Source: an uncultured Actinomycetes bacterium
GTDB lineage: Bacteria > Actinomycetota > Acidimicrobiia > Acidimicrobiales > Microtrichaceae
Direction: 5' to 3'
DNA length: 38,274 nucleotides
Assembly: GCA_903852755.1 (NCBI GenBank)
Contig: CAINRS010000016.1
Span: 1-38,274 of the forward strand
Every line of letters starts with the position of its first letter. The first letter of the stretch is position 1. Below, in pieces: positions 19,081 through 37,109 of this stretch. The translations under genes and the position numbers were made by a program. The notes below the pieces were generated by a model. The model saw only the letters and a list, made by a program, of their open reading frames with translations. It made no database searches and had not been told where the DNA came from.

Positions 19081-19134
19081 GGGGCCAGACTACGGCCTCG
19101 GGATCGGCGGCAGGATCGGTGGCAGGATCGGTCG
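19081..19134. promoter_or_regulatory. Divergent promoter gap Nudix/lipoate-ligase-like
   Basis: Reverse-strand TAGTCT (19092-19087) ends 6 bases before the Nudix GTG. Forward-strand CAGGAT (19123-19128) ends 6 bases before GTG 19135 and lies within a short tandem repeat. Confidence 0.4.
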
Positions 19135-19136
19135 GT
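19101..19136 (+). repeat. 12-bp tandem repeat, three copies
   Basis: Copies are GGATCGGCGGCA, GGATCGGTGGCA and GGATCGGTCGGT. They fill the promoter gap and run into the start codon of the lipoate-ligase-like gene. The copies could be operator sites or replication slippage. Confidence 0.6.
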
Positions 19137-19839
19137 GGGTGGGCTGTCGGACGGTGAACTCGACGTCGAGGTGCTCGGGGTGATCTCCGCCGGGTGGCAG
19201 GTCGAGCGGGTGCGGGGACCGGTGGCGGCACTCCACGCCGCCGACCTGCCGGACCGGCGGGTGGTGCGGATCTGCGAGGTGGTCGACGCCGCGGTGGTCC
19301 TCGGTTCCACCCAGTCCGACTCCCTGCTCGACCGGGACGCCCTCGACCGCAGCGGACTCGCTGCGGTCCGTCGACGCAGCGGCGGCGGAGCCGTGGTGCT
19401 CCGGCCCGGCGACCACCTCTGGGTCGACCTCTTCGTTCCGGTCGGGGACCCCCTCTGGGAGGACGACGTGGAGCTGGCCGCCTGGTGGGTGGGCGAGTGG
19501 TGGGTCCGGGTGGTGCAGGGTGGGGCGACCGTGCACCGGGACTCCCTGAGCGATCGCCGGGCCGGGTCGATTGCGTGCTTCGCCGCCCGTGGACCGGGTG
19601 AGGTCGTCGACGCCGCCGGGCGCAAGCTGGTGGGTGTCTCCCAGCGCCGGACCAGCGCCGGTGCCCGGTTCCAGACGCTCGCCTACCTGCGCTGGGATCC
19701 CGGCACCCTGCCGGGGCTGCTCACCGACCGGGCTGCGGCGCAGGTCGTGGCCCCGATCCTCAGGGACCGCGTCCGGGCGGTCCCTGAGGGGGGCGGACTG
19801 CTCGACCGATTCCTCGAGGAGGCGCCTGAATTCGGGTAG
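19135..19839 (+). CDS. Lipoate-protein ligase A/B family protein
   Basis: A 234-residue protein of the biotin/lipoate ligase fold. The motif RRRSGGGAVVLRPGDHLWVDL (near 79-99) matches the adenylate-binding RRxxGGGxV, and GRKLVGVSQRRT (near 162-173) holds the conserved active-site lysine. It may attach lipoate or octanoate to dehydrogenase E2 or glycine cleavage H proteins; members of the family can act on other acyl groups. The frame is open far upstream, but only GTG 19135 has a fitting -10 (CAGGAT, 6 bases upstream) and avoids the Nudix gene. A strong hairpin lies inside its 3' end. It is the last gene before the dcw cluster. Confidence 0.75.
   Translation: MGGLSDGELDVEVLGVISAGWQVERVRGPVAALHAADLPDRRVVRICEVVDAAVVLGSTQSDSLLDRDALDRSGLAAVRRRSGGGAVVLRPGDHLWVDLFVPVGDPLWEDDVELAAWWVGEWWVRVVQGGATVHRDSLSDRRAGSIACFAARGPGEVVDAAGRKLVGVSQRRTSAGARFQTLAYLRWDPGTLPGLLTDRAAAQVVAPILRDRVRAVPEGGGLLDRFLEEAPEFG
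19758..19789. other. Perfect 13-bp hairpin inside the 3' end of the ligase-like gene
   Basis: CCTCAGGGACCGC pairs perfectly with GCGGTCCCTGAGG around a 6-base loop. It lies 50 bases before the stop codon and 67 bases upstream of the mraZ -35 element. It could end or stabilise the upstream transcript; no T-run follows. Confidence 0.6.
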
Positions 19840-19840
19840 A

Positions 19841-19900
19841 GGTGGGTCAAAGTGGTTGCCAAGGGTAACTGAGTGCCATAGGGTGGCATGAAGTAGAGGA
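19841..19900 (+). promoter_or_regulatory. Candidate MraZ operator: GTGG-type repeats every 10 bp
   Basis: Six consecutive 10-base steps each begin with a related core: GGTGGG, AGTGGT, AAGGGT, GAGTGC, GGGTGG, AAGTAG. MraZ is known to bind repeated GTGG/TGGG boxes with about 10-bp spacing upstream of its own operon. The array overlaps both promoter elements, as expected for self-repression. Confidence 0.55.
19856..19884 (+). promoter_or_regulatory. dcw cluster promoter (mraZ)
   Basis: TTGCCA (19856-19861), a 17-base spacer and TAGGGT (19879-19884) form the best sigma-70-type promoter in the window, predicting a start at about A19891. The surroundings are unusually AT-rich for this DNA. Confidence 0.6.
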
Positions 19901-19929
19901 CGGGGGAGCGGCGTGGCTCTCCCGTCCTC
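19896..19929 (+). other. Hairpin over the mraZ ribosome-binding site and start
   Basis: A 13-bp stem (19896-19908 with 19917-19929, one G-U pair) encloses an 8-base loop CGGCGTGG. The GGGGGAG Shine-Dalgarno sequence is in the 5' arm and GTG 19913 is in the loop. It begins about 5 bases after the predicted transcript start. Confidence 0.65.
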
Positions 19930-20416
19930 CGTCCCAGACCACCCGGTCGCATGCCCTGCGACCCTGCCCCCGGACCGATACGTGGACCTGTACGACACGT
20001 TCGAACACACCGTCGACCCCAAGGGTCGACTGGTCATGCCGGCGCCCTTCCGCCCGGCGTTCGCGGACGGCGGGTTCCTGGTCAACATGCAGACCGCGCT
20101 CGGGCTCTTCCCGGCGGCCGAGTGGGAGCCCTGGGTGCGGCGGGTCGAGCAGAGCGGCAAGGTCGCTCGATCGAACCTGCGGTTCATGATCGCCTCGGTC
20201 TCGCCGATCCAGCCCGACAGCCAGCACCGGATCTCGATCAACCCCCGGCTCCGCCAGAAGCTGCACCTCGACCGCGACGTCGCGATCGTGGGGCAGCGCA
20301 AGTACGCGCAGATCTACGACCTCGCCGAGTGGGAGCGCTTCGAGGCCACCGTGGAGCAGCCACCCGCCGAGCGGCGTTCGCTGGTGGACGAGCTCGAGGA
20401 ACTGGACTTCCTGTGA
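19913..20416 (+). CDS. mraZ: Transcriptional regulator MraZ
   Basis: DNA-binding regulator that heads the dcw cluster and usually represses it. The two AbrB-like half-domains are visible: FEHTVDPKGRLVMPAPFRPAF and DSQHRISINPRLRQKLHLDRDVAIVGQ. Two starts are possible. GTG 19913 gives 167 residues, with GGGGGAG 4 bases upstream, but adds about 23 N-terminal residues not typical of MraZ. GTG 19982 gives the canonical 144 residues but has no Shine-Dalgarno sequence. The first is listed because of its ribosome site; if the second is true, the hairpin and 91-base leader are purely regulatory. Candidate MraZ operator boxes lie just upstream. rsmH follows after 42 bases. Confidence 0.85.
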   Translation: MALPSSVPDHPVACPATLPPDRYVDLYDTFEHTVDPKGRLVMPAPFRPAFADGGFLVNMQTALGLFPAAEWEPWVRRVEQSGKVARSNLRFMIASVSPIQPDSQHRISINPRLRQKLHLDRDVAIVGQRKYAQIYDLAEWERFEATVEQPPAERRSLVDELEELDFL

Positions 20417-20458: not shown

Positions 20459-21424
20459 GTGGACGATGAGCCCTTCGTCCACGTCCCGGTGCTCGTCGAC
20501 CGAGTGGTCGAGCTCCTCGCCGTCGTGCCCGACGGTCGGTTCGTCGACGCGACGCTCGGCGGTGGTGGCCACGCGGCCGCCGTGCTCGCCGCCCACCCCG
20601 GACTCGAGTTGCTCGGGATCGACCGCGACGACGCAGCGCTCACCGCTGCGGCGGAACGACTCGCTCCCTACCGGGACCGGATCCAACTCGTACGCGGATC
20701 GTTCGGCGACCTCGCCGAGCTGGTCCGCACCCACCCACCCGTCCGCCAACCCACCCCACGAACTGGAGTGACCGCCGTGCTGCTCGACCTCGGAGTCTCC
20801 TCACCGCAACTCGACCGTGCCGACCGCGGCTTCTCGTACCGGGCCGCCGGTCCGCTCGACATGCGGATGGACGAGCGCCAGGGCTTCACCGCCGACGACG
20901 TCGTGAACCACTACGACTACGCCACCCTCGCCCGGGTCATCCGGGACCACTCCGAGGAGCGGTTCGCCAGCCGGATCGCCCGGGCGATCGTGGACGCCCG
21001 GCCGATTCAGGACTCCGCTCACCTGGCCCGGGTCGTTCGGGACGCCATCCCGGCGGCGGCCCGTCGAACCGGGGGCCACCCTGCGAAGCGCACCTTCCAG
21101 GCGATCCGCATGGAGGTCAACGCCGAGTTGGACCAGCTCGCCGACGCGCTCGACGACGCGGTGGCGCTCCTGCAGCCGGGAGGCCGCCTCGCGGTGCTCT
21201 CCTACCACTCCCTCGAGGACCGGTCGGTCAAGGACCACTTCCGTAACCAGGAGACGGGAGGGTGCACCTGTCCGACCGGGCTCCCCTGCGTGTGCGGTGC
21301 CGAGCCGACCGTCCGGCTCCTCAAGCGCGGCGCGTGGCAGGCCGAGCCCACCGAGATCGACGTCAACCGACGCGCCGAGAGCGTCCGGCTCCGTGCGGTC
21401 GAGCGCCTCGGGGAGCCGGCGTGA
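20459..21424 (+). CDS. rsmH: 16S rRNA (cytosine-1402 N4) methyltransferase
   Basis: Methylates N4 of C1402 in 16S rRNA using S-adenosylmethionine. The 321-residue protein shows HVPVL at the N terminus, the SAM loop VDATLGGGGH, LGIDRDD, LLDLGVSSPQLDRADRGFSY, FQAIRMEVN and SYHSLEDRSVKDHF. A Cys-rich segment GGCTCPTGLPCVCG near the C terminus is common in actinobacterial RsmH. GTG 20459 has CGGAG immediately upstream. Its stop overlaps ftsL in a GTGA junction. Confidence 0.93.
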   Translation: MDDEPFVHVPVLVDRVVELLAVVPDGRFVDATLGGGGHAAAVLAAHPGLELLGIDRDDAALTAAAERLAPYRDRIQLVRGSFGDLAELVRTHPPVRQPTPRTGVTAVLLDLGVSSPQLDRADRGFSYRAAGPLDMRMDERQGFTADDVVNHYDYATLARVIRDHSEERFASRIARAIVDARPIQDSAHLARVVRDAIPAAARRTGGHPAKRTFQAIRMEVNAELDQLADALDDAVALLQPGGRLAVLSYHSLEDRSVKDHFRNQETGGCTCPTGLPCVCGAEPTVRLLKRGAWQAEPTEIDVNRRAESVRLRAVERLGEPA

Positions 21425-36824: not shown

Positions 36825-37088
36825 GTGAGCATCGGCGGACTGCTGTACCTGGCCATCACCGTCCTGATCGTCCTCATCTTCGTGCGGATCGTGCTGTCGT
36901 GGTTCCCGCCCGGCGGCGATCTGCTCAACAGCGCGCAGCGGTTCACCTTCGCTGCGACGGAGTGGCTCCTCGGACCGCTCCGCCGGGTGCTGCCGCCGGT
37001 CCGGCTCGGCGGCGCGGCCCTCGATCTCTCGCCGATGCTGGTCCTGTTCATCCTCTTCTTCCTGCAGAACGTGGTCCGGGGTCTCTGA
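36825..37088 (+). CDS. yggT: YggT family membrane protein
   Basis: An 87-residue protein with two TM helices (near 4-25, LLYLAITVLIVLIFVRIVLSWF, and 68-87, MLVLFILFFLQNVV) and the typical RIVLSWFPP and TEWLLGPLRRVLPP elements. Family members sit between sepF and divIVA in many Gram-positives and may help osmotic or septal membrane functions. GTG 36825 is chosen because it forms a GTGA overlap with a small upstream frame; GTG 36816 is an alternative adding three residues. A strong hairpin begins at its 3' end. Confidence 0.82.
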   Translation: MSIGGLLYLAITVLIVLIFVRIVLSWFPPGGDLLNSAQRFTFAATEWLLGPLRRVLPPVRLGGAALDLSPMLVLFILFFLQNVVRGL

Positions 37089-37109
37089 TCCCCCCGGGAT
37101 CAGAGACCC
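37079..37109. terminator. Strong hairpin at the end of yggT
   Basis: A perfect 14-bp inverted repeat (37079-37092 with 37096-37109) with a CCC loop overlaps the yggT stop codon. No T-run follows. It is the longest perfect stem in the window and is a good terminator candidate, usable in either direction. Confidence 0.65.

Follow-up and report, generated by a model that had tools for sequence, protein, structure and literature searches.

A covarying stem-loop in the 5′ leader of mraZ, built on a putative MraZ operator, in an uncultured member of the Microtrichaceae

Among bacterial transcription factors, MraZ is very widespread. The operators described for it in E. coli, Mollicutes and Burkholderia cenocepacia consist of direct GTG repeats, one per 10 bp, that lie downstream of or overlap the -10 box and the +1 position, and no covarying hairpin over the transcribed boxes is described in the available parts of the papers concerned (PMC7761207, PMC5282649, PMC8475190). 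The accessible text of PMC7761207 describes these operators as overlapping the start site. The mraZ promoter of Dietzia, another actinobacterium, is bound by MtrA as well, according to the available portion of PMC9602371. Thus MraZ need not be the sole reader of the operator.

A structured 5′ leader of mraZ is known from Rhodobacteraceae, where the UpsM/extended dcw leader precedes the gene; as far as the available text of PMC5089854 describes it, this leader is 268 nt long, has a Rho-independent terminator and involves an sRNA. The initial annotation of the DNA analysed here had named no described RNA control of mraZ of this kind, and to say that none is described is too strong. The leader at the present locus differs from UpsM in that it is predicted to be ~90 nt long, with one operator-embedded stem and no terminator.

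The window, i.e. the whole stretch of 38,274 nt that was analysed, is contig C16 of a 3.16-Mb assembly. Its features around the mraZ leader are collected in Table 1. The MraZ of the window (19982-20413) is divergent: it passes the Pfam cut-off and is under the NCBIfam MraZ cut-off (60.8 vs 98.35 bits). Stretches homologous to the upstream lipoate-ligase-like gene were found by tblastn in loci L004-L010, L015 and L017 and in many other loci.

Table 1. Features at and around the mraZ leader, in window coordinates
Feature	Position	Strand	Basis
Lipoate-ligase-like gene upstream, putative start, stop 19837-19839	19126..19839	+	PF21948
MraZ-box-like array, eight units	19842..19916	+	read from sequence; period over 114 relatives
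Predicted -35, TTGCCA	19856..19861	+	TTG 16-18 bp from TA...T in relatives
Predicted -10, TAGGGT, overlapped by box	19879..19884	+	leader comparison; spacer to -35 17 bp
Stem-loop 5′ arm; also operator spacer and box 3 (GGGG 19903-19906)	19896..19909	+	fold, covariation, period
Hexaloop GGCGTG; GTG 19913-19915 part of box 4 (GTGG 19913-19916)	19910..19915	+	10-leader comparison
Stem-loop 3′ arm, covarying with 5′ arm	19916..19929	+	covariation, RNAalifold
mraZ, GTG start, 144 aa + stop	19982..20416	+	alignment, upstream frame, Pfam PF02381 E 6.7e-19
mraW/rsmH, next dcw cluster gene	20459..21424	+	PF01795 E 6e-101

A start of the mraZ transcript near position 19891 is plausible, as predicted from TTGCCA, the 17-bp spacer and TAGGGT. 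The layout TTG-(17/18 bp)-TANNNT is found in all ten leaders that bear the hairpin described below. Of 114 anchored relatives, 79 have a TTG 16-18 bp away from TA...T, against 15 of 339 places in the background. No promoter was reported for positions 19700-20100 by a strict scan for the sigma-70 consensus; its threshold is four of the six -10 consensus letters, of which TAGGGT has three.

The units of the array are GTGG 19842, GTGG 19852, GGGT 19863, GTGC 19873, GTGG 19883, GTAG 19893, GGGG 19903 and GTGG 19913. They follow each other in steps of 10, 11, 10, 10, 10, 10 and 10 bp and extend across the -10 box and on into the leader. The period was assessed over 156 distinct loci, an anchor being obtained in 114 of them, at two in-register offsets that were not used for anchoring. 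At offset -20, 75% of loci (n = 114) match GTGG in at least three of its four letters; at +30 the share is 24% (n = 109). Offsets -26 to -21 and -19 give 1%-11%, and -18 and -17 give 37%-38%. The peak at +30 is modest, offsets 26-29 giving 2%-8% and 31-33 giving 12%-21%, and there are off-register GTGG peaks at -28 (38%) and -41 (34%). The array thus consists of GTG(G) direct repeats with a 10-bp period near the -10/+1 of mraZ, and by this layout the region 19842-19916 is a putative MraZ-type operator, at which MraZ would be expected to bind.

A GTGG array with a 10-bp period is also present upstream of a malate dehydrogenase gene (mdh) at locus L252 (G000:C47), at about 1885-1994 on the minus strand. 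The congeners L255, L256 and L258 (two with a full mdh, the third with its first 34 residues) have no such array before mdh, and therefore that of L252 is probably not a conserved MraZ site. At the same place upstream of mdh, L256 and L258 have a long palindrome built around ATGCATATGCAT, with CTTTGTGGTGCGAGC on one side and the reverse complement of CTTTGTGGTGCGAGC on the other.

In the mraZ leader, positions 19896-19909 pair with 19916-19929. The resulting stem has 14 bp, one of them G-U (G19905-U19920), and closes a loop of 6 nt, GGCGTG. The 36-nt hairpin has an MFE of -30.9 kcal/mol (z = -5.5), and equal stability was reached in none of 200 shuffles. The initial annotation had the sequence, the coordinates and the G-U pair right, but gave the size as 13 bp with an 8-nt loop; C19909 and G19916 pair too, which makes it 14 bp with a 6-nt loop. 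Its further statement that the ribosome-site-like GGGGGAG is held in the stem and GTG 19913 in the loop is borne out by the fold.

Stems of this length are not rare by chance somewhere in the window: on the plus strand there are four of at least 14 bp (G-U allowed, loop 3-8), as against a mean of 1.0 per block-shuffled window. Hence it is the place and the conservation of the mraZ-leader hairpin that carry the argument. A 14-bp hairpin, TCCTCAGGGACCGCGTCCGGGCGGTCCCTGAGGG, is at window positions 19757-19790, within the 3′-terminal part of the lipoate-ligase-like gene and 47-80 nt short of the stop codon. At 37079-37109, the sequence GGGTCTCTGATCCCCCCGGGATCAGAGACCC forms a 14-bp stem with a 3-nt loop and is possibly a terminator.

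A hairpin of 14-18 pairs just past the -10 box is present in all six genomes of the genus, in the one genome of g15 and in both genomes of g7; some of these contain small internal loops. In g5 there is a version of 7 pairs, in the one genome of two in which mraZ was found. Counting the T of TGG as 1, the first paired base is at position 9-13 in nine of the ten leaders and at 19 in L010. The loops are GGCGTG, GACGTG, GACGAG, GGCGCG, ATCGTG, AACGGA, AATGTG and AACGGG, and those of all ten leaders fit RNYGNR.

Covariation was assessed in alignment A4 (seven sequences) and alignment A8 (ten sequences from four genera). In A4, 89.8% of the cells pair and six of the 14 pairs are changed on both sides (shuffle mean 2.6; reached in 0 of 500 shuffles). 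The initial annotation had proposed covariation in homologous mraZ leaders as a check of the stem, and compensated pairing is indeed present there: two-sided changes occur at nine of 14 pairs in A8 (shuffle mean 4.4; 0 of 500). The covariation score was likewise reached in 0 of 500 shuffles for both alignments. Controls with slid partners give one to three two-sided pairs in A4 and three to four in A8; the shuffles leave relatedness in place and the slid control retains it. Of the five measures of covariation, “further pair types” is less clear-cut: 36 (A4) and 54 (A8) of 500 shuffles reach its observed value. RNAalifold returns exactly the 19896-19909/19916-19929 stem from A4, unprompted, and this stem is the shared feature in whole-leader folds of seven sequences. 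The mraZ-leader hairpin is conserved and is maintained by matched base changes.

Five of the six two-sided pairs in A4 are at operator spacers (19899, 19900, 19902, 19907, 19908), the sixth being the box base 19903. It is thus the pairing that is maintained, more than the identity of the boxes.

The codon GTG 19913 in the loop requires separate consideration. The conserved MraZ N-terminus (MDLYDTFEHT...) is encoded from GTG 19982, as seen with 14 aligned family proteins in an alignment whose rows were cut at the 19982 position by the analyst. The codon at the loop position is GTG in three of six genus members, and only the window has it both open and in frame with mraZ. Elsewhere in the genus, L005 is out of frame, L009 runs into a stop, L006 and L007 carry GAG and GCG, and in L004 the codon is displaced by a one-base insertion. 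The frame upstream of 19982 is thus not conserved, and the view that the loop displays the mraZ start codon is unsupported. From its register, GTG 19913 is most likely a piece of the operator, i.e. the eighth array unit at offset +30, and not a start codon; as an array unit, its presence needs no start codon.

Beyond the four genera, the other 20 loci of the family that have mraZ show no stem of comparable form at the same place; three of them (L021, L023, L038) have different hairpins in or near the mraZ leader. A covariance model made from A4 (R1) gives 67.1 bits at the site in its own genome, the window itself being part of the model, and the next non-overlapping place gives 17.8 bits. Of 397 order genomes, 31 have matches at E 0.01 or better, 20 of which were placed relative to mraZ. 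At least seven of these are at mraZ, i.e. the five built into the model, G009, which is absent from it, and G075 (E 0.0086); at least ten are elsewhere by coordinates, and three are in genomes without an mraZ match, among the matches listed. In a tree of 29 MraZ proteins, with the 7-pair g5 leader labelled as hairpin, the hairpin label needs three changes, which could be a single gain plus two losses. The tree may be compatible with one origin of the hairpin.

Among 91 long leaders, from the order and other relatives, 26 have a hairpin with z below -2 as compared with shuffled tails. Leader hairpins are thus commoner than chance and structured mraZ leaders may recur; of all these leaders, it is that of the genus, g15, g7 and g5 alone whose hairpin has demonstrated covariation. 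In family f45, six of seven loci (L161, L180, L197, L198, L202 and L221, members of the order) have by eye a short hairpin right after box 3, and the seventh, L222, was left out as it has no such hairpin. MAFFT and RNAalifold gave a consensus of only three pairs for the six, with no covariation, and this candidate was rejected.

The explanation favoured here, put forward tentatively, is that the 5′-terminal stem-loop locks an SD-like transcribed operator, a decoy ribosome site, with possible protection of the 5′ end. In the DNA, MraZ would repress its own promoter through the GTGG boxes spaced 10 bp apart. After passage of RNA polymerase, the operator letters would sit at the extreme 5′ end of the mRNA of mraZ (dcw operon). 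The transcribed boxes are purine-rich and, with GGGGGAG in the window and GGAGG in relatives, would resemble a strong ribosome site beside a GUG. The 3′ arm would fold back and lock the boxes in a very stable stem that starts 1-5 nt past the predicted +1. Ribosomes would likely be kept off the decoy and enter at GTG 19982 with its weak own ribosome site, and the stem would also shield the 5′ end of the mRNA.

This locking or capping model starts from the resemblance of the transcribed operator to a ribosome site. The best anti-SD energy of the array in the genus is -8.6 to -10.6 kcal/mol, and that at the true start is -2.2 to -3.2 kcal/mol in five of the six members (-8.2 in L009). The unpaired probability of the array in the genus is 0.00-0.10. 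In the short-leader relatives L056, L058, L061, L067 and L070, the third operator box is at Shine-Dalgarno distance from the mraZ ATG; it reads GGGGAG in L056, L061 and L067 (where the ATG is 33 nt past the anchor), GGGAGG in L058 and GAGAG in L070. The resemblance between operator and ribosome site is thus not idle.

Over the 91 long leaders, a greater SD advantage of the array goes with a lower accessibility of the array, with a small correlation (Spearman -0.23) whose p of 0.03 takes no account of phylogeny/relatedness or base composition. The array site beats the true site in just 55 of the 91. Masking of box 3 as a general rule was rejected, this box being paired at 0.63 vs 0.58 with shuffled tails over the same leaders. 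L006 and L007, which have no GTG in the loop, still have strong stems, and therefore the hiding of a decoy start codon cannot be the full reason for the stem.

The nearest rival is that the stem-loop is purely a stabiliser at the 5′ end of the mRNA, one that blocks 5′-end-dependent decay of the dcw transcript, with the SD-like content incidental. This is somewhat unlikely. It agrees with a helix that starts 1-5 nt past the predicted +1 (about position 8) in nine of ten leaders, and with stem letters that vary while stability stays high within the genus and g15. However, masking leads one to expect the same geometry, and the start site is a predicted one. Three further explanations rank below the stabiliser in likelihood, namely a palindrome acting at the DNA level, pausing or attenuation of transcription, and a switch bound by a protein.

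Covariation alone cannot separate pairing at the RNA level from pairing at the DNA level. The inverted repeat could accordingly place MraZ boxes on each strand of the DNA or form a cruciform, the RNA structure being irrelevant; the 5′ arm is operator, and in L005, L006 and L009 the 3′ arm repeats AGTGG on the bottom strand. This is rather improbable, however, as the two-sided changes are mainly in spacers: pairing is kept where MraZ boxes demand nothing, which favours an RNA helix over a mirrored DNA site. The ten folds have 10 G-U pairs vs three A-C oppositions (the latter counted by eye), a weak lean toward a plus-strand transcript. In addition, the described MraZ operators are direct repeats in the available parts of their sources (PMC8475190, PMC7761207, PMC5282649).

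About as doubtful is a promoter-proximal pause or attenuator, in which the nascent hairpin slows, releases or un-backtracks RNA polymerase, or ends transcripts of the lipoate-ligase-like gene. E. coli mraZ does have a sigma70-dependent backtracked pause with a 14-15-nt RNA, as given in the accessible portion of PMC7876045, but the mraZ-leader hairpin forms too late for a pause at +15. As for attenuation, homologues of the upstream gene are present at relatives' loci; against this, no U tract follows the stem and no terminator was called, so that the hairpin does not have the form of an intrinsic terminator. It is also downstream of mraZ's own predicted promoter, and other family loci carry the upstream homologue without the mraZ-leader hairpin.

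An autogenous or ligand-sensing RNA switch, in which translation is toggled by the binding of MraZ, or of some other factor, to the loop, was among the options of the initial annotation and is very unlikely. The loop does follow RNYGNR in ten leaders, with the box GTGG at the loop edge. Yet no conserved alternative structure was seen in these leaders, no Rfam model matches at gathering, and a second hairpin that the window's leader forms at about 19945-19963 was dropped, since it does not recur and the other leaders fold differently there. In addition, 66 nt separate the loop from GTG 19982 and the site of the real start is not sequestered, unlike in a translational riboswitch.

It is likewise highly improbable that the element is bifunctional, MraZ recognising it first in duplex DNA as its operator and then in the nascent mRNA as a stem-loop that carries a box. 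If this were true, MraZ would control its own operon at transcription and at a translation/decay step. Scarcely credible is a mraZ start at GTG 19913 that the hairpin controls or bars in favour of GTG 19982. Within the window no stop interrupts the reading frame between 19913 and 19982, but a GTG that is open and in frame is present in just one of the six genus members, and the conserved N-terminus is encoded from 19982.

Returning to the favoured locking of a transcribed operator, the nearest described elements can be compared. The mraW RNA motif (RF01746) is a candidate cis-RNA too, from the same gene cluster in Actinomycetales; it differs in being assigned to mraW and in having 107 positions, as described in the available parts of PMC2864571, PMC5784534 and PMC3890552. 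Identity with this motif was rejected: none of 33 family genomes is over its cut-off, nine of 33 giving sub-threshold matches (best E 0.0075). The control search gave matches in both Thermus composti and Corynebacterium glutamicum, one of which exceeded the cut-off. Rfam as a whole gave no family at gathering over the window; 14 weak matches (E 0.17-9.2), to microRNA models and far under their own cut-offs, were set aside.

The mraZ promoter of S. aureus is similar in having a G-rich region downstream and proposed structured control elements, and it has an inverted repeat upstream of the promoter and G runs that form a quadruplex, according to the accessible text of PMC11796246. Unlike in S. 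aureus, the G runs of the genus leader are downstream of the -10 box and are paired with a covarying C-rich arm.

In the available portions of the literature on mraZ, among the matches listed, no covarying hairpin over the mraZ operator is described. Stem-loops of the ompA type, which protect mRNA from its 5′ terminus, are likewise stable hairpins at the 5′ end of a leader; none of them is known to double as an operator.

The MraZ operator, structured dcw leaders, the mraW motif and the S. aureus G-quadruplex with its inverted repeat are thus known. What appears to be new is a stem-loop of a 5′ leader that is built on a putative transcription-factor operator, a modest but solid cis-element with a putative function. 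It is a candidate RNA element that heads a cell-division operon, is kept by compensatory change and is unmatched by Rfam. This case makes testable a neglected question, i.e. the fate of an mRNA when a G-rich operator resembling a ribosome site is transcribed.
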